Source: Mumia sp. Pv4-285
GTDB taxonomy: Bacteria; Actinomycetota; Actinomycetes; Propionibacteriales; Nocardioidaceae
Assembly (NCBI RefSeq): GCF_041320275.1
Contig: NZ_CP162023.1
Coordinates: forward strand, 186,001 to 250,000
DNA length: 64,000 bases
Reading direction: 5' to 3'
Both the position numbers and the translations under genes were made by a program. The notes under the pieces were generated by a model. It had not been told where the DNA came from and did not search any database. It saw only the letters and a list, made by a program, of their open reading frames with translations. Positions 44,515 to 57,753 of the stretch are shown here, piece after piece. Positions within the stretch are counted from its first letter, which is position 1. Every line of letters starts with the position of its first letter.

Positions 44515-46350
44515 CTACGCCTCCAGGCGCGCCTTCAGTCCGTCGAGCTCGGTCCAGAGAACGGCCGGCAGCTTGTCGCCGAACTTCTCGAACCACTCGT
44601 TGATCTGCGGGATCTCGGCCTTCCACTCGTCGACGTCGACGGCGAGGGCCTTCTCGAGCTGCTCGTCGGTCACGTCGAGGCCGTCGGTGTCGAGTGCCCC
44701 CGGCGCCGGCACGAGGCCGATCGGGGTCTCGACGGCGTCGACCTTGCCCTCGATGCGCTCGACGACGTACTTGAGCACACGGCTGTTCTCGCCGAAGCCC
44801 GGCCAGAGGAAGCCGCCGTCCTCGTCACGTCGGAACCAGTTGACGTAGAAGACCTTCGGGAACTTCGACTCGTCGTTGTTCTTGGCCATCGAGATCCAGT
44901 GGCTGAAGTAGTCACCGGCGTCGTAGCCGATGAACGGCAGCATCGCCATCGGGTCGCGGCGGACGACGCCGACCGCGCCGGTGGCGGCAGCCGTGGTCTC
45001 CGACGAGAGCGTGGCGCCCATGAAGGTGCCGTGGGTCCAGTCGCGGGCCTCGGTCACCAGCGGGATCGTCGTCTTGCGCCGACCGCCGAAGAGGATCGCG
45101 TCGATCGGGACGCCGTTGGGGTCGTCGTACTCCGGCGCGAGGATCGGGCACTGGCGGATCGGGGTGCAGAAGCGGCTGTTCGGGTGCGACGAGAGCTCGT
45201 CGGACGCGGGCGTCCAGTCGCGGCCCTTCCAGTCGGTCAGGTGCGCGGGGGCGTCCTCGGTCATGCCCTCCCACCAGATGTCGCCGTCGTCGGTGAGAGC
45301 GACGTTGGTGAACACCGAGTTGCCCTGGGCGATGGTGCGCATCGCGTTGGCGTTGGTGTCCCAGCCGGTGCCCGGCGCGACACCGAACAGACCGAACTCG
45401 GGGTTGACGGCGTACAGGCGGCCGTCGGCTCCGACGCGCATCCAGGCGATGTCGTCGCCGAGGGTCTCGACCTTCCAGCCCTCGATCGTGGGCTCGACCA
45501 TCGCGAGGTTTGTCTTGCCGCAGGCGCTCGGGAACGCGGCGGCGACGTACTTGACGTCACCCTCCGGCGAGGTGAGCTTGAGGATGAGCATGTGCTCGGC
45601 GAGCCAGCCCTCGTCGCGGCCCATCACCGAGGCGATGCGGAGCGAGTAGCACTTCTTGCCGAGGAGGGCGTTGCCGCCGTAGCCGGAGCCGAACGACCAG
45701 ATCATGCGCTCCTCGGGGAACTGCACGATGTACTTGGTGTCGCTGCAGGGCCACGGGACGTCGGCCTGGCCCGGCTCGAGCGGGGCGCCGACGGAGTGGA
45801 GCGCGGGGACGAAGGACGCGTCGGTGGCCTCGATCTTGTCGAGGACCTCGCGGCCGACGCGTGCCATCACGCTCATGGACGCCACCACGTAGGCGGAGTC
45901 GGTGATCTCCACGCCGAACATCGGGTGGGCGGAGTCGAGGTGACCCATCACGAACGGGATCACGTACATGGTGCGGCCGCGCATCGAGCCGTCGTACAGC
46001 TCGATCATGAGCTTCTTCATCTCCGACGGCGCCATCCAGTTGTTGGTGGGACCGGCGTCGGCCTCGTCGACGCTGCAGATGAAGGTGCGGTCCTCGACGC
46101 GCGCGACGTCGGTCGGGTCGGAGGCGCACCAGAAGGAGTTCGGCTTCTTGGTCTCGTCGAGTCGGACGAAGGTGCCGGCCTCGACGAGGTCGTCGGTGAG
46201 GCGGGTCCACTCGTCGGGGGTGCCCTCGATCCAGGTGATCGAGTCGGGCTTGGTCAGCGCGGCGACCTCGTCGACCCAGGCCTGGAGCTCGGCGTGTGTC
46301 GAGCGGTAGGAGGTCGTCACTGAGTCGTACGTGGTGGTGTCTGCGGCCAT
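44515..46350 (-). CDS. pckG: phosphoenolpyruvate carboxykinase (GTP)
   Basis: A 611-residue GTP-dependent PEPCK of canonical length and sequence, interconverting oxaloacetate and PEP in gluconeogenesis. Key blocks: [30 protein letters not shown]-loop FPSACGKTN (C277, K279), [25 protein letters not shown] and [12 protein letters not shown]. The start was set at 46350 (MAADTTTY), since the frame upstream lacks family similarity and GAAGGA is about 11 nt away. A divergent second PEPCK lies at 53595-55442. The 400-nt gap upstream holds its promoter and that of the facing FN3 gene. Confidence 0.97.
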
Positions 46351-46665
46351 GGTGTGTGTAGTCCTTCTCGCATCGCGATTCAAGCGTGTTGATCGCACTG
46401 CCTGATCCATCCTGTGGACGGGCAGCTGATGTGGATAGGTGGTCGCGGCCCGCGCGATCTCAGCCGGGAACCGGTCCGAACCACGCGGGTCGTGTGGTCA
46501 ATGTATGCCCCGTGTCGCCACATCCATGAGTTCGGGTCCAGGGAAGTGAACTAAGTCACAAAGGGCCTCTGACCTGCGGTTTTATGTTGATTGAACCCAC
46601 AAATGCGTGGACGCTCGTGTCGCCCCAGGTCACGGCGTCCCGGCGGCACCTTTCGCCGCGCGTGC
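46351..46665. other. divergent promoter region of pckG and the second FN3 gene
   Basis: No gene is visible. It contains an AT-richer patch around 46550-46610 (TTTATGTTGATTGAA) in otherwise GC-rich sequence, which is a plausible promoter zone. No operator could be assigned with confidence. Confidence 0.35.
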
Positions 46666-46690
46666 TGAATATTGGAAGTTCGTGAGACAC
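46666..46690 (+). promoter_or_regulatory. motif shared by both PA14-FN3 genes (copy 2)
   Basis: TGAATATT, a 4-nt spacer, GTTC, one nucleotide, TGAGACAC, 66 nt before the GTG start. It matches the copy at 36040-36063 at 20 defined positions, apart from a one-nucleotide spacer difference. Co-regulation of the two paralogues is inferred. Confidence 0.55.
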
Positions 46691-46755
46691 CGGTCATGCC
46701 CGGCGCTTACGGTTCCCGTACGACGTCCAGCCAGCCCCAGCTCGGGAGAGACCAG

Positions 46756-49700
46756 GTGATCCACGTCCTCAGGCGTGCACGCACGCTCGGCGCCATCGTC
46801 GGTGCCACCCTGGTCGCGAGCCTGCTCGTGCTGGTGCCGGGTGCCTCCGACCCGGCCTCTGCGGCGTCCGCGGCGCCGACCGCGGCGTCGTGCGCGAAGT
46901 CCGGACGCTGGCTCGCCCAGTACTACAAGGGCACCTCTTTCACGGGCAAGCCCGTCAGGAAGCGGTGCGAGAAGCGCATCGCCGCCTCGTACCCCGCCAG
47001 CCGCCAGCCCTTCGCCGTGCGGTGGAGCAGGACCCGCACCATGAAGGGCTCGTACGAGCTGCGTGCTCGCGCCACCGGCACGGCCACGTTGCGCATCGAC
47101 CGGCGGAAGGTCGCGACCGCGTCGCAGGGTCGGTACGCCGCCGCGGTGCGCACGCTGCGCAAGCGCAAGCACACCGTCGAGGTCCGCTACGTCAAGGGTG
47201 TCGGCGCCGGTTCCGTCCACGCCCAGCTCGTCAAGGCTCCCGACCGTACGCCGCCGGCGAGGCCGGGCGGCCTGCGTGCGGTCGCCGGTGACCGGGCCGT
47301 CGCCCTCGCGTGGAAGGCCCCGAGGGCGATCGACGTGCGCGGCTACCGCGTGTACCGCGACGGGCGACTGGTCCAGCAGGTCGCGACCCGGGCCGTCACC
47401 GACATCGGGCTGACGAACGGCGTCGCCATGGCGTACGCCGTCGTGGCCGTCGACCACCGCGGCAACGCGTCGCGGGCCGCGCGTGTCAGCGTGACGCCCA
47501 AGGACCAGGTCGCACCCCAGACCCCGACCGACCTCGTCGCCACCGCCGGTGACGGCACGGTCGCGCTCCGCTGGGACCAGGGTGCCGCGAGCGACCTCTC
47601 GTCCTACGTCCTCCGCCGCTCGGGTGGTGGAGCCGACAAGACGTGGACGCTCCCGACCTCGGCGACGAGCGTGGTCGACGCACCTGTCGTCAACGGCACG
47701 GTGTACGCGTACTCGCTCGTCGCCCGCGACACCTCCGGCAACACGTCGGCGCCTGCGCTTGCCGGAGCGGTGCCGGCAGACGCCGCCGCGCCATCGACAC
47801 CTGCGGGCTTCGAGGCCATCGGCAAGGACGCCTGCGTCGAGCTGAGCTGGACCGCCAACACCGAGAGCGACCTCGCCGGCTACGTCATCACCCGCATGCG
47901 CTCCGACGGGATCGGCGCGCCCGCAGAGTTCGCCCTCGGAGCGGGCGCCACGCGGTTCTCCGACACCAGCGCCAAGAACGGCGTCGCCTACGCCTACACG
48001 ATCGTCGCGCGCGACACCTCGGGCAACCGCTCGGGCGGGTCGACGGCCCCGGCGACTGCACGCGACATGGTCCCGCCGGCGGTGCCGCAGGGGCTCGCGT
48101 CGGCTGTCGACGACGGCGCGGTCGTGCTGCGCTGGACGGCTCCCACGGACGACACCGCCTCGTACACGGTCTGGCGGTCCGACGACGGCGACGAGTTCGT
48201 CAAGATCGGTGTGGCGGTCGGTACGGCGCCGACGTACACCGACCACGACGTCGCCGAGAAGGTGCTGTACCGCTACCGCATCGTCGCCGTCGACGGTGCC
48301 GGCAACGTCTCCGCCCCCTCCGGACCTGCCGACGTGACGCTGCCCGACACCGATGCCCCCGAGACGCCGCGGGGCCTGGCGGTCGAAGCCCGCGACGGCC
48401 GCGTCGAGCTCACGTGGACGCCGAACGGCGAGGACGACCTCGCGGGCTATCGCGTCTACCGGTCCGTCGCCGGCGCGCCCTCCCAGGAGCTCGCCGACCT
48501 GGGTGCCAGCGCCGCAGGCTTCAGTGACGTCGACGTGGTCAACGGCACCACGTACACGTACGCGATCAGCGCCTACGACGACGACGACAACGAGTCGGGT
48601 CGTACGACCGGTCGCGCCGCGACGCCGCTCGACCGCGCCGCTCCGGCGGTGCCCTCGGGCCTGGCGGCCGAAGCCGGTGAGGGACAGGTGGCGCTGCGCT
48701 GGAACGCCAATGCGGAGGGCGATCTCGCCGCGTACGTCATCGTCCGCACCGGCGGTGCTGGCGACCCGACGCAGTTCCAGGTGGATGCGGGCACCGCGAC
48801 CTACGTCGACACGACGGCGAGGAACGGCACGACCTACGCGTACGTGATCCACGCGCGCGACCGCGTCGGCAACGTGTCGGCTGCGTCGCTGCCCGTGACG
48901 GCGACCCCGCAGGACGTCACCCCGCCTGCCGTTCCGCAGGCGTTCGCCGCCGTCCCGGGCGACCGCGAGGTCAGGCTGAGCTGGGACGCCGGCACGGAGG
49001 ACGACCTTGCCTCGTACACGCTCTTCCGGGCTGCAGGGGCCGGAGCCCTTGCCGAGCTGGCGACCGTCGACGGGACGGTCACGGCCTACACCGATGCGGC
49101 TGTCGTGAACGACACGCGCTACCGCTATGCGATCGCCGCGACCGACGCCGCCGGCAACGTGTCGGTCGTGTCGGCGGAGGTCGCCGCTGCGCCGACCGAC
49201 CTCACGGCGCCGGCGCCACCGGCGACGCCGACCGCTCGTGCCCGTGACCGCGAGGTCGCGCTGGCGTGGACGGCCAACACCGAGCGCGACATCGCCGGCT
49301 ACCGCATCTACCGTGCAACCACCCCCGACGTGCCGATCGTCGGCAACGGCATCGCCCGGCTCCTGCCGACGCCGGCGTACACCGACAAGGACGTCGCGAA
49401 CGGGACGACGTACTACTACGTCGTCGTCGCGGTCGACACCCACGGCAACGTGTCTGCTCCCTCGGGAAGCGTGGCCGCCACTCCAGAGGACGTGACGCCG
49501 CCCGCCGAGCCGACCGGGCTGGTCGCTCTGGTCGCGCGCGGCGCCGTCGCACTCGACTGGGCCGACAGCGACGCGAGCGATCTCGACCACTACCTGGTCT
49601 ACCGCGTGACCGTCGGCGGAGAGCCGCCGCTCGGCGACGAGCCGCCGCTGGCCGAGGCCACGGCTTCGTCGTACGTCGACGCAGAGGTCGGCGCCGGCAC

Positions 49701-49794
49701 CTCGTACGAGTACTGGGTCGTCGCCGTCGACACGGCCGGCAACGCCTCCGCGGCCTCGCTCACCGTCGCGGTCACCACGCCCGCGCAGGAGTGA
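46756..49794 (+). CDS. secreted PA14 / nine-FN3-repeat protein
   Basis: A 1012-residue exported protein paralogous to the N-terminal quarter of the 36123 gene. It has a signal peptide (to about 37), a PA14-like domain with the same blocks (GRWLAQYYKG, FAVRW, ATLRIDRRKV, HTVEVRYV) and nine fibronectin-III repeats of about 95 residues. Each FN3 begins with a (P/A)P-x-x-P turn and has V-x-L-x-W, GYRVYR-like and NG-T-YTYAI-like strands. The malectin and propeller parts of the paralogue are absent. The GTG at 46756 was chosen because GGGAG lies 7 nt upstream and the signal peptide then starts properly. Adhesion or matrix role inferred. Confidence 0.85.
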   Translation: MIHVLRRARTLGAIVGATLVASLLVLVPGASDPASAASAAPTAASCAKSGRWLAQYYKGTSFTGKPVRKRCEKRIAASYPASRQPFAVRWSRTRTMKGSYELRARATGTATLRIDRRKVATASQGRYAAAVRTLRKRKHTVEVRYVKGVGAGSVHAQLVKAPDRTPPARPGGLRAVAGDRAVALAWKAPRAIDVRGYRVYRDGRLVQQVATRAVTDIGLTNGVAMAYAVVAVDHRGNASRAARVSVTPKDQVAPQTPTDLVATAGDGTVALRWDQGAASDLSSYVLRRSGGGADKTWTLPTSATSVVDAPVVNGTVYAYSLVARDTSGNTSAPALAGAVPADAAAPSTPAGFEAIGKDACVELSWTANTESDLAGYVITRMRSDGIGAPAEFALGAGATRFSDTSAKNGVAYAYTIVARDTSGNRSGGSTAPATARDMVPPAVPQGLASAVDDGAVVLRWTAPTDDTASYTVWRSDDGDEFVKIGVAVGTAPTYTDHDVAEKVLYRYRIVAVDGAGNVSAPSGPADVTLPDTDAPETPRGLAVEARDGRVELTWTPNGEDDLAGYRVYRSVAGAPSQELADLGASAAGFSDVDVVNGTTYTYAISAYDDDDNESGRTTGRAATPLDRAAPAVPSGLAAEAGEGQVALRWNANAEGDLAAYVIVRTGGAGDPTQFQVDAGTATYVDTTARNGTTYAYVIHARDRVGNVSAASLPVTATPQDVTPPAVPQAFAAVPGDREVRLSWDAGTEDDLASYTLFRAAGAGALAELATVDGTVTAYTDAAVVNDTRYRYAIAATDAAGNVSVVSAEVAAAPTDLTAPAPPATPTARARDREVALAWTANTERDIAGYRIYRATTPDVPIVGNGIARLLPTPAYTDKDVANGTTYYYVVVAVDTHGNVSAPSGSVAATPEDVTPPAEPTGLVALVARGAVALDWADSDASDLDHYLVYRVTVGGEPPLGDEPPLAEATASSYVDAEVGAGTSYEYWVVAVDTAGNASAASLTVAVTTPAQE

Positions 49795-49832
49795 CTCGCA
49801 GTCCGGCGGGGGCGACTCGCGCCTGAGATGAC

Positions 49833-49868
49833 GCAGGGCCCGCACCCCGGTGGGGGTGCGGGCCCTGC
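49833..49868. terminator. perfect 16-bp bidirectional terminator hairpin
   Basis: GCAGGGCCCGCACCCC pairs perfectly with its complement across loop GGTG, between the convergent FN3 and S55-like genes. Very stable; no U-tract. Confidence 0.8.
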
Positions 49869-49883
49869 CTCGTACGCCGTCGG

Positions 49884-51767
49884 TCAGCGCTTCTTCGGCT
49901 TGCCGTAGACCATCACCGGCACCATGACGTCACCGCTGACGACCGTGGCGGTGGCCTTGCGTGCCTTCTTCTCGACGGCCTTTCGCCCGCTGCCGAGGCT
50001 CAGCGACGCGAAGACGTCGTTGCCGTGCTCCGCCCGCGACATCGCCGAGAGCAGACCGGGGAGCGACGTCACGTCGCTCATCGTCTCGTACTCCTCGTCG
50101 GCGTACTCGTCGTAGTACATGTCCTCGAACTCGTCCTCGTAGTCGTCCGACGAGCCGAAGGAACCACCGCTGACGGACAGGATGCCGATCGGCGACTTGA
50201 ACTTGCGCCGCGGCACCGCGACGTTGAGCCGCACCGTCTTCGTCGCCACGCCTGTCGCTCCGGTCTCGCGCTTGAGCACGGCGCGCAGCTTCAGCGTGCC
50301 GCCACGACGCACGAGCAGCGGAGAGGACGCCTTGACCCGGGTCCAGCGACCGAACTGCTTCGCCTCGACACGCGAGATCGCGTACGCCTGGTAGCCCTCG
50401 GTGATCGAGGTCGACTCGGTGGCGCCGAGGATCGTCACGTCCTCGAACCCGTTGGACAGGATCGATTCGATGTCGCCGGCGAAGGCCTCGGCGGCGCCCG
50501 CCGAGACGTCGAACCGGTCCGCGCTGATGTCATTGCGCGTGTACGTCAGGACCTGACCGTTGGAGCGACGCAGCTTGATCGCGCGGTTCGTCCGGACGAC
50601 GCCGCCGAACATGCCGTCGGTGAGCGTCATGCTGTCCATCGTCGACTGCATGCCGGCGACCGTTGACAGCCAGTCAGGGGACAGCACGGTCGTGGAGGAC
50701 GTACGGCTGCGGGTGCCGACGCGGTTCGTCGTACGGACCGCGGTGCCGGTCGGTGCGGCGCCGAGGCCGCCGACGATGGCCGTCAGCCGGTCCTGCGTGA
50801 TGGTCCCGATCGGAGCCCCGATGTTGGCGATCTTGAAGGAGCCGTCGTAGTCACGCTCGACGTAGACGGAGTCTGCGCCGTGCAGGGAGAGCCTGGTCTT
50901 GCCGAGCCAGTCCATCGGGTGGCCGAACCCGTAGACCTTCGTGCCGCAGACGGCGGTCGTCGTGCCGACACCGGCGAGCGGGAAGGATCCGTACGCATAG
51001 CCGGCGGCGAGGTTGGATCCGGCCGAGACGCCGATCCGCGTGGAGCTGGTCTTGCTGCTGCTCGACCCGTTGCGGAAGGTGACGTTCTTGAGCCGGGCCT
51101 TCTTGGCGATCGCCTTCGCGGACGCCGGCGAGAATCCGGCGGGGATGGTGACCGGGGTGGGAAGACGGCGCATCGCGCCGGTCGACGCCTGCGGGCTGGC
51201 ACCGGTGGCGCGCATCGAGGCGGCGACCTTGGTGGGGATCGCAGCAGCGGCAGAGCCTGCAGCGTACGACCCGGCGCGATAGAGGTCGGCGGCCGGCGTC
51301 ACACCGGCGTAGTCGCTCGGCGCCCACGACTGGCCGTACGCGACCGCGCCGACGAGCCGTCCGTCGGCCGCGTACAGCGGGGTGCCGGACATGCCGGACC
51401 AGATCCCGCGATCGACGGCACCGTTGGCGTCGGTGATCCGCGAGCCCTTCATCTTGAAGATCAGCATGTCGACGCCGGGCGCGATGCCGTCGTCGATCGT
51501 GCCGACGTACTCACCGCTCACGACGTCGGGCGTCGTGCCGGAGGTCACGGTCAGGCCCTGGACGGCGGTGCCTGCGGCCGTGGTCGTCGCGCGTACGAGG
51601 CCGGCCGGCGGGTACGCGGCGGGACACGCGGACCCGATCACGGGCGCCGAGGCGGGATCGTCGGCGAGTGCCGGGCCCGTCGCGGCGAGCGTCGCCGCCG
51701 TGACGGCGATCGTCGCGGCAGCCACGATCGTGAGGGTGCGCCGCCGGGCGGGCGCAGGTGCGGTCAT
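49884..51767 (-). CDS. secreted SpoIVB/S55-like serine protease with permuted motifs
   Basis: A 627-residue exported protein (signal peptide to about 36, ending ALADD). The S55 nucleophile motif GMSGTPLY (S127) with GRLVGAVAYG comes first. The His motif VYGFGHPMDWLG (H283), with ERDYDGSFKIANIGAPIGTITQDR, comes about 155 residues later. In SpoIVB the His motif precedes the Ser motif, so the order here looks permuted. An acidic, Tyr-rich low-complexity stretch (YEDEFEDMYYDEYADEEYE) lies near 555-575. GAGG lies 5 nt before the ATG. The organism shows no sporulation genes here, so a surface-maturation role is guessed. Confidence 0.75.
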   Translation of the reverse strand: MTAPAPARRRTLTIVAAATIAVTAATLAATGPALADDPASAPVIGSACPAAYPPAGLVRATTTAAGTAVQGLTVTSGTTPDVVSGEYVGTIDDGIAPGVDMLIFKMKGSRITDANGAVDRGIWSGMSGTPLYAADGRLVGAVAYGQSWAPSDYAGVTPAADLYRAGSYAAGSAAAAIPTKVAASMRATGASPQASTGAMRRLPTPVTIPAGFSPASAKAIAKKARLKNVTFRNGSSSSKTSSTRIGVSAGSNLAAGYAYGSFPLAGVGTTTAVCGTKVYGFGHPMDWLGKTRLSLHGADSVYVERDYDGSFKIANIGAPIGTITQDRLTAIVGGLGAAPTGTAVRTTNRVGTRSRTSSTTVLSPDWLSTVAGMQSTMDSMTLTDGMFGGVVRTNRAIKLRRSNGQVLTYTRNDISADRFDVSAGAAEAFAGDIESILSNGFEDVTILGATESTSITEGYQAYAISRVEAKQFGRWTRVKASSPLLVRRGGTLKLRAVLKRETGATGVATKTVRLNVAVPRRKFKSPIGILSVSGGSFGSSDDYEDEFEDMYYDEYADEEYETMSDVTSLPGLLSAMSRAEHGNDVFASLSLGSGRKAVEKKARKATATVVSGDVMVPVMVYGKPKKR

Positions 51768-51932
51768 GTCTACCTCATGGAGTCGGGTCGGCGGCGGGGG
51801 ATTGCCGACAGTCGGTGAAAGATATCCTCTCGACGGGGTCGCGCGGGCCCGATCGGACAGACTGGGGAACCCGATTTCGGTCTTCGCGAGCGACCCGCTA
51901 GAGTAGGTGTCGCTTCGCCAGTGGCGGGGCAA

Positions 51933-52005
51933 GCGCTCGTAGCTCAACGGATAGAGCATCTGACTACGGATCAGAAGGTTAGGGGTTCGAATCCCTTCGA
52001 GCGCG
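51933..52005 (+). tRNA. tRNA-Arg (anticodon ACG)
   Basis: A 73-nt cloverleaf. Acceptor GCGCTCG pairs with CGAGCGC. The D arm is AGCTCAACGGATAGAGC. The anticodon stem TCTGA/TCAGA has loop CTACGGA, giving anticodon ACG. The T arm is AGGGGTTCGAATCCCT. CCA is not encoded. It is followed at once by a strong hairpin. Confidence 0.95.
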
Positions 52006-52079: not shown

Positions 52080-52982
52080 TCAGCCGAGCACCGCGCTCAG
52101 GTCGAGCGCGTCGAGGCGGTCCGGGTCGGCGAGGACGTCGATGGCGGCGATCTTCTGGTCCACGATCGTGAAGGCCATCACCACCTGCGCCTTGCGCTTC
52201 GGCACCACCAGCAGGCCGGGCGCGCCGTTGACGAGGACGCGGTGCGTGAACGGGGCCAACGCCTCGGCGCCGCGGGCCTGCGCGGCGACCTGCTGGGCCC
52301 CGCGCAGCGTCAGCGTCAGCTGAGGTCGGGCGGTGCCGCCGTCGGAGCGCAGCACCACGTCAGGATCGAGCACCGCGACGAGCGCGTCGAAGTCGCCGCC
52401 GCGGGCCGCGGCCAGGAAGGCGTCGACCACCTGACGCTGGCGAGCCAGGTCCGGGTCCGGCGTCGGCGCCTGGCCGCGTACGCGCCGGCGGGCACGGCTG
52501 GCGAGCTGGCGTGCGGCCGCGGGCGAACGATCGAGCAGCGACGCGATCTCCTCGAAACCGACCCCGAACATGTCGTGCAGCACGAAGGCCAGCCGCTCAG
52601 CAGGGCTGAGTGAGTCGAGGACGACGAGCAGGGCCATGCCGACGCCGTCGGCGACCACCGCCGACGCCTCCGGGTCCACGCCCGGGTCTGGGCTGACGAC
52701 CGGGTCGGGCACGTGGACCAGGGACTGCTCTCGGCGCTGTCGCCGGGTCCGGAGCTGGTTGAGGCAGACCCGTGACAGGACCGTCCGAAGCCAGGCGCCG
52801 ATGTTCTCGACCGACTCGGTGTCGGCCCGGCTGACCCGGATCCAGGTGTCCTGCACCGCGTCCTCGGCGTCAGCGGCGGATCCGAGCATCCGGTACGCCA
52901 CCGCGCGCAGCTGTGGTCGGTGCTGCTCGAAGACCTGCTCGAGCCAGCCCTCAGGGTCGGTTCGTCGGTCGGGCTCGGTCAC
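52080..52982 (-). CDS. ECF41/SigJ-type extracytoplasmic-function sigma factor
   Basis: A 300-residue sigma factor. Region 2 (FEQHRPQLRAVAYRMLGSAADAEDAVQDTWIRV) and region 4 (LSPAERLAFVLHDMFGVGFEEIASLLDRSPAAARQLASRARRRV) are followed by a C-terminal SnoaL/NTF2-like domain (about 185-300) with a DGG motif. This is the ECF41 architecture, in which the fused NTF2-like domain replaces an anti-sigma factor. It is divergent from a DoxX gene, a common ECF41 target, with inverted TGTCACA elements between them. Confidence 0.9.
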   Translation of the reverse strand: MTEPDRRTDPEGWLEQVFEQHRPQLRAVAYRMLGSAADAEDAVQDTWIRVSRADTESVENIGAWLRTVLSRVCLNQLRTRRQRREQSLVHVPDPVVSPDPGVDPEASAVVADGVGMALLVVLDSLSPAERLAFVLHDMFGVGFEEIASLLDRSPAAARQLASRARRRVRGQAPTPDPDLARQRQVVDAFLAAARGGDFDALVAVLDPDVVLRSDGGTARPQLTLTLRGAQQVAAQARGAEALAPFTHRVLVNGAPGLLVVPKRKAQVVMAFTIVDQKIAAIDVLADPDRLDALDLSAVLG

Positions 52983-53594: not shown

Positions 53595-55442
53595 ATGGCC
53601 GACCCCGAAAAGGCGATGGACGAAGCCGGCCTCACGAACCCGCAGGTCCGTGAGTACGTCCGCCACTGGGCAGAGTTCACCGGAGCCGACCGGGTCGAGG
53701 TCGTCAGCGCCGCCGACGACGCACGCCTGATCGAGGAGGCTCTCGACGCGGGCGAGCTCGAGCCTGCGGGCACGGGGCGCTACTACTCCCGCAGCTACCA
53801 CAAGGACACCGCGCGCTCGGAGGAGCGCACCATCGTCGCGACGAGCGATCCGAAGGACAAGGGCGTCTACAACAACTGGCGCCCCGCCGACGAGATGCGG
53901 CCGCTGCTCGAGAGCAAGATGCGCGGCGCACTGGCCGGCAAGACGATGTACGTCGTCCCGTACCTCATGGCGCCTCCCGGCAACGCCCTCGCACCGTGGG
54001 CTGCCGGGGTCGAGCTGACCGACACCCGCACGGTCGTGCTCCACATGATCCGCATGGCGCGCGTCGGCATCGACCACGTCAACACCCTCGAGGACCCGGA
54101 CAGCTTCGTCCGCGCGGTCCACGTGACCGGCGAGCTCGAGTCCCTCGGGCACGGCACGCCTGATGACCAGCGCTACTTCGTCACGGTCGCCGACGAGCGT
54201 ACGATCCTGCACTTCGGCTCCTCGTACGGTGGCAACGCGCTGCTCGGCAAGATCGCCCACGGCCTGCGCCAGGGTGCGTACGACGGGTGGGACTCGCGCA
54301 AGTTCCTCGCCGAGCAGTACATGCTGATCGGCATCCACGACAAGCAGACCGGCGAGACCCACCACATCTGCGGCGGGTTCCCGAGCGCGTCGGGCAAGAC
54401 GAACCTCGCGATGATGCTGCCGCCGGACGCCCTCGGCGACCGCTACCACGTGTCGTTCTACGGTGACGACATCGCGTGGCTGTGGGTCGACGAGAAGTCC
54501 GGACGCCTCTACGGCATGAACCCGGAGTACGGCGTGTTCGGCGTCGCGAAGGACACGAACGAGACCACCAACCCCACGGCGCTGCACTCCATCGACGAGG
54601 GCACGGGCGCGATCTTCACCAACGTCGCCTACAACCCGGTCACGCAGGAGGTCTGGTGGGAGGGGCGTACGCCGGAGCCGCCGGCCGACCCCACGGGCTG
54701 GCTCGACTGGATGGGCAGCCCGATCGCCGACCGCGAGCCCGGCGACGACTCGCCCTGGGCGCACCCGAACAGCCGCTTCACCACCACGCTCGACAACGTG
54801 CCCAACATCGCGCCCGACTACAGCGCGCCCGAGGGCGTCCCGATCGACGCGATCATCTTCGGCGGCCGCACCCGTGACCGCGAGCCGCTGGTCCGCGCGA
54901 TCGACGACCTCGCCGAGGGCGTGTACGACGGCCTGACGCTGGGCGCCGAGGCGACCTTCGCGGCGGAGGGCGTCGAGGGCCAGCTGCGCTACGACCCGAT
55001 GTCGAACCGTCCGTTCATGGCGTACGGGGAGGGTGACTACGCCCGCCACTACCTCGACGTCGTCGGGGCCGCGTCCGAGCAGCCGATCTTCGCGCACGTC
55101 AACTGGTTCCAGCGCGATCCGGAGGACGGCCACTTCCTGTGGCCCGGCTACCGCGAGAACCTGCGCCCGCTCCTGTGGCTGATCCAGCTCAAGAAGGGTG
55201 AGGTCACCGGTCGCCAGACCCCGGTCGGCATCATCCCGACCGAGGACGAGCTGCTGCTCGAGGGGCTCGACATCGCCCCCGAGGACCTCAAGACGATCCT
55301 CTCGATCGACGTCGACCGCTGGCGCCAGGAGATCGGCTTCCGCGAGGAGCACCTCGCGCAGTTCGAGAACATGCCCGAGGAGATCTGGGAGGCGCACCGT
55401 CGCGTCGCGGCTGCGCTCGCCGACGAGGCCGCACAGGGCTGA
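53595..55442 (+). CDS. divergent PEP carboxykinase (GTP-type) paralogue, P-loop Cys to Ser
   Basis: A 615-residue PEPCK-family protein clearly homologous to the pckG product but only distantly so. [50 protein letters not shown] (S266, K268), GDDIAWLW, NPEYGVFGV, HPNSRFTTT and FGGRTRDREPLV align with the catalytic blocks. The highly conserved P-loop cysteine of GTP-PEPCKs (ACGKTN) is serine here, while lysine and threonine are kept. The N-terminal region (YYSRSYHKDTARSEERT) looks closer to archaeal-type enzymes, from memory. GAAAGGA precedes the ATG. It may be a PEPCK with different regulation or another substrate. Confidence 0.85.
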   Translation: MADPEKAMDEAGLTNPQVREYVRHWAEFTGADRVEVVSAADDARLIEEALDAGELEPAGTGRYYSRSYHKDTARSEERTIVATSDPKDKGVYNNWRPADEMRPLLESKMRGALAGKTMYVVPYLMAPPGNALAPWAAGVELTDTRTVVLHMIRMARVGIDHVNTLEDPDSFVRAVHVTGELESLGHGTPDDQRYFVTVADERTILHFGSSYGGNALLGKIAHGLRQGAYDGWDSRKFLAEQYMLIGIHDKQTGETHHICGGFPSASGKTNLAMMLPPDALGDRYHVSFYGDDIAWLWVDEKSGRLYGMNPEYGVFGVAKDTNETTNPTALHSIDEGTGAIFTNVAYNPVTQEVWWEGRTPEPPADPTGWLDWMGSPIADREPGDDSPWAHPNSRFTTTLDNVPNIAPDYSAPEGVPIDAIIFGGRTRDREPLVRAIDDLAEGVYDGLTLGAEATFAAEGVEGQLRYDPMSNRPFMAYGEGDYARHYLDVVGAASEQPIFAHVNWFQRDPEDGHFLWPGYRENLRPLLWLIQLKKGEVTGRQTPVGIIPTEDELLLEGLDIAPEDLKTILSIDVDRWRQEIGFREEHLAQFENMPEEIWEAHRRVAAALADEAAQG

Positions 55443-55548: not shown

Positions 55549-57753
55549 CTAGTGCTTCACCTTCCCGGTCGGGAGTGACGGCGCGATCATCGGGTGCAGC
55601 GTCGGGTCGTCCACCGACACCACGGCGACCACCCGCTTGCCGGCGTCGGACGGCTTCAGCGTGTACGTGTACGACGTCGCGTCGGCGACCTTGCGTCCAC
55701 CGACGAGCCACGTGTAACCGAACCCGTGGACCTCGCGCGACCACGAGCCGTTGCTGACCGTGAGCGTCGCTCCGACCTTCGGCCCGCCGGTGATCCTCGG
55801 CAGCCTGGTCGGGATGACCGCCCGCTTGCCCGGGTCCGTGAGGGTCACGTCACCGGCCTTCACGAAGACCTGCTTGTGGGCGTACCAGAGCTGGTAGTAC
55901 TCCAGCTGACCCTTCACGACCGTGCGGTCGTCGGGGATCGACCCGTCGAAGGTCTTCGCGTAGTAGTAGTCGGTCTCGACGTCGTCGTCGCTCACGGCGT
56001 ACGACTGGCCGACCCCGAGCGTGTACTCCAACGGGGCGATCGCCTGGACCGGGATCGCGTACGGCGCGTACGCCTCGGGCTCCGGGTAGGCCCGTCCGAA
56101 GATCGGCGCCGCCGTCGTCGGCGACGTGACCGTGACCGTCTTCGCGGTCGTACGGAGCACGACCGGCTTCGCGGCCGGGTTCTCGATCCACACCAGCGAG
56201 CCCGCCCACCAGACGCCGAGCCAGCCGTCACGCACCTCGGCGACGACCAGCTTGTGCCCGGACTGGATGCGAGCGCTGATGTCGCTCGCGTACGTCGTCC
56301 CGGCCGAGCCGTCCGGCTTCCAGCCCGGATCCTTGGCCAGCGGCGCGTCGGCGGACGGCGCCTGGCGGGCGACGACGTAGTTCGTCCCCTGCCCGACCAC
56401 GCAGTCTCCGGAGCCCGGCGAGGCCTGCTGGCACCCGGTGACGGGGTTGACGTTGCCGGCGTATCCCGAGCGGACCTCCACGACGTCGCCGGCCTTCACG
56501 GCGGCGGTGTTCCTCGCGGACTGCCCGATCGGTGCGTCGATCAGGTCGAAGTAGTGCTCCCAGTCCCAGTACGGCCCCGGGTCCCAGTGCACGCTCCTGG
56601 TCGCACCGGCGGTGATGCCGGGGACCTGGTCGTGGCCGATGATGTGCGCCCGGTCGAGCGGGATGTCGTGCTCCTCGGCGAGGTAGCGGACGAGCTTGGC
56701 TGACTGCTCGTACATCGCCTCGGTGAACCAGCCGGCCGAGCCCGCCCAGCCTTCGTGCTCGATGCCGATCGAGTGCGCGTTCACGTACCAGTTGCCCGCG
56801 TGCCAGCCGACGTCCTTCGGGTCGAGGTGGTTGGCGATGTGGCCGTCGGACGAGCGGATCGTGTAGTTCCACGCGAGGTACGTCGGGTCGGTGACGAGAC
56901 GGATCGTGGGGTCGTACGCCGTCTCCGTGTCGTGGATGACGATGTACTTGATCTTCGGCCCGCCGGGTCCGGTGCGGTCGGCCTTGTCGTGGTTGCCGTA
57001 GTTGCCGGTGCTGTCGGGATCGGTGGGGTTGCCCTTCGCGTAGCCGGCGGGGATCCACTCGCAGCCGAGGTCGACGGGGCAGTCGGTCTCGGGGTCGCTC
57101 GTCGTCGTGTCGGGCACCTCGATGCTCGGGTCCGCCTCCAGCGTCACCGCCTCGCCGCTCGACGTCACGCGGGACTGGCCCGTGCGCAGCGTCGTCAGGA
57201 CCTGGCGGGTGAAGGTCGCCGCCGAGCCGAACTGCGCGATCGCGCCGCTCCACTCGTCGACGGGAGCACCGGCGTCGAGACCGTCCGCGTACGAGGACGT
57301 GAGGGCCGCGGCCGCGCAGAGGTTGGCGCGGTCGTCGCTGCGGACCGTCGGGACGTCGAGACCGGTCAGATCCGAGGCGCGCTCGAGCTGGCTCGTCGTA
57401 CGGCCGTCGCCGTCGCTGCCCTTGCCGACGGCGTCGGGCACGGCGGTGGTCGACGACCGGAGGTTGAACATCCCGTAGCCGCCGTCGTTGCTGGCCTGAC
57501 CGTCGTGGCCCTCCCAACGGGACTGCATGTAGGACACGGCCTTGAGCACGTCGGCGGGGACGTCGGCCGATCGGGCGGCGGCGTCGAACGCCGCATCGAG
57601 CGTCGGGGCCGCGAGGACTGGGGCGCAGTCCACGGCCGGTGGGTCAGAGGTCGGTGTGGCTGAGGCCCACGAGGCGAGCGCCGTCGGGAGAGCGGTCAGC
57701 AGCAATGCCGTCGCGCTCCCGGCGAGGCCGACTCGTACGAGTGAGGATCGCAC
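55549..57753 (-). CDS. secreted N-acetylmuramoyl-L-alanine amidase (Amidase_2)
   Basis: A 734-residue exported protein. The signal peptide (to about 32) is followed by a small helical domain (about 45-205) with lysozyme-like GGYGMFNLR. The zinc amidase domain is at about 270-410: YIVIHDTE, YTIRSSDGHIANHLDP, GWHAGNWYVNAHSIGIEHEG, AHIIGHDQVPG and HWDPGPYWDW contain the metal and catalytic residues. Two SH3-like segments (about 420-530) and a C-terminal Ig-like repeat with NGSWSREVHGFGYTWLVGG close it. It would cleave the lactyl-peptide bond of peptidoglycan. A perfect dyad lies 43 nt upstream of the start. Confidence 0.9.
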   Translation of the reverse strand: MRSSLVRVGLAGSATALLLTALPTALASWASATPTSDPPAVDCAPVLAAPTLDAAFDAAARSADVPADVLKAVSYMQSRWEGHDGQASNDGGYGMFNLRSSTTAVPDAVGKGSDGDGRTTSQLERASDLTGLDVPTVRSDDRANLCAAAALTSSYADGLDAGAPVDEWSGAIAQFGSAATFTRQVLTTLRTGQSRVTSSGEAVTLEADPSIEVPDTTTSDPETDCPVDLGCEWIPAGYAKGNPTDPDSTGNYGNHDKADRTGPGGPKIKYIVIHDTETAYDPTIRLVTDPTYLAWNYTIRSSDGHIANHLDPKDVGWHAGNWYVNAHSIGIEHEGWAGSAGWFTEAMYEQSAKLVRYLAEEHDIPLDRAHIIGHDQVPGITAGATRSVHWDPGPYWDWEHYFDLIDAPIGQSARNTAAVKAGDVVEVRSGYAGNVNPVTGCQQASPGSGDCVVGQGTNYVVARQAPSADAPLAKDPGWKPDGSAGTTYASDISARIQSGHKLVVAEVRDGWLGVWWAGSLVWIENPAAKPVVLRTTAKTVTVTSPTTAAPIFGRAYPEPEAYAPYAIPVQAIAPLEYTLGVGQSYAVSDDDVETDYYYAKTFDGSIPDDRTVVKGQLEYYQLWYAHKQVFVKAGDVTLTDPGKRAVIPTRLPRITGGPKVGATLTVSNGSWSREVHGFGYTWLVGGRKVADATSYTYTLKPSDAGKRVVAVVSVDDPTLHPMIAPSLPTGKVKH

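Follow-up and report, generated by a model that had tools for sequence, protein, structure and literature searches.

The locus and its two PEPCK genes

The window, that is, the whole 64-kb stretch of DNA analysed here, contains two genes for homologues of GTP-dependent phosphoenolpyruvate carboxykinase (GTP-PEPCK). One is a canonical pckG gene, and the other is a divergent relative, referred to here as Ser-type, which lies on the opposite strand across a gap of about 7.2 kb. The two genes and their neighbours are as follows:

44515..46410, minus strand: canonical pckG paralogue, 631 aa, active-site Lys, His and Cys kept (open reading frame, pairwise alignment, family profiles)
46630..49845 and 49884..51959, minus strand: reading frames of 1071 and 691 aa between the PEPCK genes, no Pfam match
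52083..52982, minus strand: ECF-type sigma factor with Sigma70 r2 and r4 and a weak SnoaL-like domain, just upstream of the Ser-type gene
53595..55442, plus strand: Ser-type GTP-PEPCK homologue, 615 aa (open reading frame, both family and domain profiles, predicted fold)
55552..57753, minus strand: N-acetylmuramoyl-L-alanine amidase domain protein, convergent with the Ser-type gene

The Ser-type reading frame is intact from its ATG start to its TGA stop. Residues 260-270 of the protein read GGFPSASGKTN, with Ser266 placed within [28 protein letters not shown], and the HPNSRF block is also present; the P-loop of the canonical paralogue reads SACGKTN. The first-pass annotation had described a second, divergent PEPCK with Ser266 some 7 kb from its paralogue, and the reading frame, P-loop and HPNSRF block are all as it claimed. 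The two proteins share 39% identity over 599 aligned positions, and the one-contig, 4.65-Mb source genome holds exactly two PF00821 matches. Close matches to the Ser-type protein in named genomes come from Mumia xiangluensis (94%), M. quercus (91%) and Mumia sp. zg.B17 (89%), which places the source genome in Mumia (Nocardioidaceae) or near that genus. Seemingly conserved matches just past the 3' end of the Ser-type gene had no Pfam match and are read as shadow reading frames.

Family membership and fold

Both proteins of the source genome carry the two Pfam PEPCK domains (PF00821/PF17297) and exceed the cut-off of 504 bits for the NCBIfam GTP-PEPCK equivalog NF003253, with 620 bits for the Ser-type and 990 bits for the canonical protein. 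Chance similarity to PEPCK is not an issue, because the Pfam C-terminal domain matches the Ser-type protein with E = 2.5e-119. An AlphaFold2 model of this protein, built from a 46-row alignment, has a mean pLDDT of 85.3 and a pTM of 0.88. The model matches GTP-PEPCK structures end to end (4wou by VIA: Z 43.5, rmsd 2.1, 573 residues), and all matches among the 50 rows listed by Foldseek and VIA-align are PEPCKs. The predicted fold is that of a PEPCK, with the P-loop poorly modelled (pLDDT below 50 at 264-267 and 269-278) and the region around 452-469 also uncertain. By descent and fold, the Ser-type protein belongs to the GTP-PEPCK family, yet it is not filed as a canonical GTP-PEPCK because its metal-site-1 triad departs from Lys/His/Asp.

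Metal site 1 and the retained pockets

Active-site columns were compared across 117 Ser-type, 117 canonical and 5 archaeal-like PEPCK frames from 241 loci, each with at least 380 matched residues. Rows identical to one another and the query's own copy were removed before residues were counted. Because Ser-type rows were chosen by their better score to the query, some of the uniformity in this group is to be expected, and the contrast with the other groups is what matters. The columns of main interest, all on the plus strand, are the following:

54252..54254, plus strand: Ile220 codon (ATC), replacing the metal-site-1 lysine (rat K244, M. tuberculosis [Mtb] K229); Ile in 117/117 Ser-type rows, Lys in 117/117 canonical and 5/5 archaeal-like rows
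54315..54317, plus strand: Gln241 codon (CAG), replacing the metal-site-1 histidine (rat H264, Mtb H249); Gln in 117/117 Ser-type rows, His in 117/117 canonical and 5/5 archaeal-like rows
54390..54392, plus strand: Ser266 codon (TCG), replacing the reactive P-loop cysteine (rat C288, Mtb C273); Ser in 117/117 Ser-type rows; Cys in 115/117 canonical rows, Ser in 1 and Thr in 1
54465..54470, plus strand: Asp291-Asp292 codons of the kinase-2 GDD; 117/117 in both Ser-type and canonical rows

The first-pass annotation had singled out the serine; beyond it, the residues equivalent to rat Lys244 and His264 are also exchanged, for Ile220 and Gln241. The metal-site-1 triad thus reads Ile, Gln and Asp in all 117 Ser-type rows, while the Lys and His ligands are invariant across all 122 other rows compared. 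Asp292, present in every row, is the single site-1 ligand retained. The alignment runs without gaps at 219-220, and the Glu preceding position 241 is universal in the Ser-type and canonical groups. Two further differences lie among the compared positions: position 222 is His in 117/117 Ser-type rows and mostly Tyr or Phe in canonical ones, and the residues after GVA, in an earlier and smaller set, are Lys319-Asp320 in 90/90 Ser-type rows, in place of Pro (108/108) and Gly (107/108).

In PMC4370629, metal site 1 of the Mtb enzyme is predicted to consist of Asp295, His249 and a lysine that appears in print as 'Lys249'; going by its neighbour C230 in PMC5279734, this lysine is read here as Lys229. 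According to PMC2684135, the metal is bound by the second Lys of the PCK-specific motif, so the Ser-type protein keeps one of the three site-1 ligands. PMC2684135 also describes the Aeropyrum pernix PEPCK as lacking this second, metal-binding Lys, like the Ser-type protein; unlike it, the Aeropyrum enzyme belongs to the ATP-type lineage.

The other catalytic elements are conserved. The Lys, Thr and Asn of the P-loop and the kinase-2 GDD occur in 117/117 Ser-type rows. The aromatic GTP triad (Mtb F502, F510, F515) is represented by F505, F514 and Y519, is aromatic in all ungapped rows, and has Tyr as its third member in 113/117 Ser-type rows. Apart from this change of Phe515 to Tyr519, the GDP-contacting side chains listed for the Mtb enzyme are retained, including the equivalents of Ala272 and Gly274. 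The substrate residues (rat R87, Y235, N403, R405) are likewise present, R74 in 116/117 rows with one gap, and Y211, N392 and R394 in 117/117. The Ser-type protein therefore shares length, fold, GKTN, GDD, aromatic clamp and substrate Arg/Asn/Tyr with GTP-dependent PEPCKs (EC 4.1.1.32) such as M. tuberculosis PckA (4wou, 4r43), to which it is about 40% identical, but differs in Ile/Gln for the site-1 Lys/His, Ser for the P-loop Cys, Tyr for the third clamp Phe, Lys-Asp for the Pro-Gly after GVA, and the disappearance of conserved cysteines.

Isoleucine is unable to bind a metal, and substitutions at metal site 1 would normally be expected to cripple a PEPCK. As judged from these columns, the serine is the lesser change, and the main interest lies in a remodelled metal site within an otherwise intact and widely used PEPCK clade. 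Retention of the GTP pocket and substrate residues notwithstanding, the change at the metal site may leave room for a new substrate.

Loss of cysteines

The serine is part of a wider depletion of thiols. With shorter rows excluded, the aligned core contains 0-4 cysteines in Ser-type rows (median 1, n=115) and 4-14 in canonical rows (median 8, n=114). At six columns, 70% or more of the canonical rows have Cys, namely 82, 221, 266, 396, 402 and one without a Ser-type counterpart; no Ser-type row has Cys at any of them. Columns 396 and 402 align with Mtb C391 and C397, a pair that PMC5279734 describes as a regulatory disulfide. According to this source, the substitutions C391A and C397A also make the Mtb enzyme less stable and subject to inhibition by oxaloacetate (OAA), so loss of these cysteines has effects besides redox.

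The first-pass annotation proposed both redox insensitivity and altered kinetics, and these two ideas fare differently. Loss of the P-loop cysteine is confirmed, and because five further conserved cysteines are gone as well, the Mtb disulfide pair included, the prediction is stronger than it first appeared; redox insensitivity of the Ser-type enzyme is a plausible and sound prediction from its residues. As a cause of altered kinetics, Ser266 makes a weak case, since the introduction of PMC5279734 describes the Mtb P-loop cysteine as non-essential in both directions, and the two exceptional canonical rows, from otherwise ordinary actinobacterial PEPCKs (L052, L037), have Ser or Thr there. As these two enzymes keep the metal-binding Lys and His, the P-loop cysteine is able to change alone. 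For the same reasons, Ser266 was downgraded as the key feature of the protein. Among the canonical rows compared, serine at this position is rare (1/117).

The same P-loop replacement is known elsewhere. Thermoplasma volcanium and T. acidophilum PEPCKs have Ser in place of the reactive Cys, according to PMC2684135. The M. tuberculosis C273S enzyme (PDB 5i67) has the same serine, but it is engineered and keeps Lys, His and the other cysteines.

Clade placement, selection and distribution

The Ser-type proteins form one clade with SH-aLRT support of 100, outside canonical pckG, both in a tree of 74 of the 203 rows and in a second tree of 39 rows, and the stem branch of the clade is very long (3.6-3.8 changes per column). 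The proposal that the protein represents another clade is upheld by this fully supported group (100%). Clustering within the actinobacterial pckG clade, which would have made it an ordinary member, is not what the trees recover, although an AU test does not reject a joint clade of Ser-type and actinobacterial pckG (p 0.173). Because of this result, an old duplication and an old transfer are indistinguishable. The suggestion of a transferred gene finds no support as far as a recent event is concerned: the Ser-type gene is present in 6/6 genomes of the genus examined, its GC is normal, with GC and GC3 like those of the canonical pckG paralogue, and its dN/dS of 0.12-0.17 indicates purifying selection. 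Recent horizontal transfer into the source genome was rejected on these grounds.

This selection also bears on whether the Ser-type protein might be a catalytically weak or regulatory PEPCK-like protein, as the loss of two metal ligands could imply. Such a role is very improbable, given the low dN/dS, the invariance of the P-loop, the GDD and the substrate residues, and the many genomes that have the gene as their sole copy.

Among the nearest relatives sampled, 11 of 58 genomes, source included, carry the Ser-type gene: the six of the genus plus five others (G011, G015, G016, G018, G024). In the class-wide sample, in which at most three candidates per genome were scored, it occurs in 41/394 genomes, 26 of which have a single PEPCK match. 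Ser-type members there are at least 68% identical to the query, and all others among the matches listed are at most 43% identical. The phylum sample yielded 3/396 genomes, one of them (G213) from another class. In its family, G213 is the only one of 150 genomes with a Ser-type gene, and it has no other PEPCK match, whereas 134/149 other members have a GTP-PEPCK match, none Ser-type. This suggests functional replacement of the canonical enzyme in G213, although, in this 160-contig assembly, it could be contamination.

A scan of named genomes found the patterns of the clade at 452 stretches, of which 403 encode relatives. The best 80 of the 403, at 77-94% identity, come from Nocardioidaceae (62), Intrasporangiaceae (9), Geodermatophilaceae (5), Jatrophihabitantaceae (1) and Sporichthyaceae (1), with 2 lacking a family rank. 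A canonical gene lies within the 10-kb flanks in at least 29 of these 80 loci. In 27 of the 29 pairs it is downstream on the same strand; in the other two, both from Mumia, it is upstream on the opposite strand, as in the window.

Gene content of Ser-type genomes and probable function

Fifty Ser-type genomes were compared for gene content. A canonical copy is also present in 31, and 19 lack one, 17 with a single Ser-type gene and two with two; for the second copies, in G469 and G500, bit score is the sole basis of the assignment. ATP-PEPCK was found in none of 26 genomes checked, 22 of them Ser-only. The PPDK_N domain is absent from 7 of the 22 Ser-only genomes: G024, A. massiliense (G482), A. 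camelliae (G484), A. phragmitis (G485), Aeromicrobium sp. Root495 (G486), Nocardioides sp. CER19 (G494) and N. daejeonensis (G469). The other 15 have PPDK_N matches, so the Ser-type enzyme need not be the only PEP source there. The search for PEP-forming enzymes covered canonical PEPCK, ATP-PEPCK and PPDK/PEP-synthase domains; PEP could also come from a PPi-PEPCK. For genomes reached through named loci, completeness is unreported and the absence of a gene may be an assembly gap; G024, one contig and 100% complete, is the safest Ser-only case.

GlpX FBPase is encoded in all seven PPDK_N-free genomes and in G000. PEPC is found in G024, G484, G485 and G486, and pyruvate carboxylase in G482, G484 and G494. 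As anaplerosis is thereby covered in six of the seven, the function missing there would be a PEP-forming enzyme. Isocitrate lyase gives a clear match in G024 alone and weak ones in G482, G484 and G494 (also in G000), and is absent from G485, G486 and G469; use of the glyoxylate route to grow on acetate is therefore unsupported for most of the seven, and gluconeogenesis from other acids or amino acids is possible.

These data weigh on a division of labour in which the Ser-type enzyme would be specialised for anaplerosis (PEP + CO2 to oxaloacetate) and the canonical copy for gluconeogenesis. Paralogue pairs are common and often tandem (the 27/80 best named loci above), and a Cys-poor form could escape the reducing conditions that, according to the introduction of PMC5279734, the anaplerotic reaction of Mtb PEPCK requires. 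N. daejeonensis, with neither PEPC nor pyruvate carboxylase and with two Ser-type copies, would also fit. However, of the seven genomes with no PEP-forming enzyme detected other than the Ser-type one, six are already equipped with PEPC or pyruvate carboxylase, and this specialisation is quite unlikely.

It is also doubtful, if somewhat easier to conceive, that the clade, its metal site 1 dismantled, no longer performs PEPCK chemistry and uses the retained nucleotide site and substrate arginines for a different reaction, a phosphoryl transfer or a decarboxylation, with a related oxoacid as substrate. The long stem branch, the invariance of I220/H222/Q241/S266 and K319/D320 and the retention of a canonical PEPCK alongside in 31/50 genomes would agree with such a departure. 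It is countered by the genomes in which the Ser-type protein is the sole GTP-PEPCK (19/50 and 26/41), seven of them without another searched PEP-forming enzyme, and by the retention of substrate-binding Arg74, Arg394, Asn392 and Tyr211. Moreover, nothing conserved was found beside the PEPCK pair in the 64-kb window, and no pathway gene adjoins it.

The Ser-type protein, a member of an actinobacterial clade, is probably a second PEPCK isozyme that works in gluconeogenesis with a rebuilt metal site, its activity being inferred from gene content. As a gluconeogenic PEPCK, it most likely converts oxaloacetate to PEP using GTP, like ordinary PEPCKs. The site-1 metal would be held, or its role replaced, by Asp292 and Gln241 together with the candidates His222, Lys319 and Asp320, and metal needs would differ accordingly. 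With few thiols, the enzyme would be unaffected by redox and thiol reagents, and genomes with both copies would possess one redox-sensitive and one insensitive isozyme.

Significance and further relatives

PEPCK is a textbook two-metal enzyme. Chances are about even that a widespread lineage runs its housekeeping gluconeogenic PEPCK without the Lys and His ligands, with altered metal chemistry behind an unchanged reaction or with a new reaction on the PEPCK scaffold. If the clade drops two site-1 ligands and in some genomes still carries gluconeogenesis alone, it would test how much of the accepted metal mechanism is essential. For work on redox and thiol effects, the Ser-type protein also provides a PEPCK almost devoid of cysteine. 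No description or biochemical record of the clade was found in open-licence papers; it is widespread and apparently unstudied, and automatic annotation as GTP-PEPCK conceals its active-site change.

Several other PEPCK relatives were encountered. Plasmid carriage of the Ser-type gene was rejected, as the 59 plasmid records that matched PEPCK all stayed at or below 60% identity. Some actinomycete genomes (G107, G291, G817) have two to four GTP-PEPCK matches and no Ser-type copy. The five archaeal-like GTP-PEPCKs (L149-L153), at about 30% identity, have a GKTS P-loop, keep Lys and His, and come from other classes of the phylum. Finally, seven IMG/VR contigs (L235-L241) encode GTP-PEPCK relatives at 37-39% identity.
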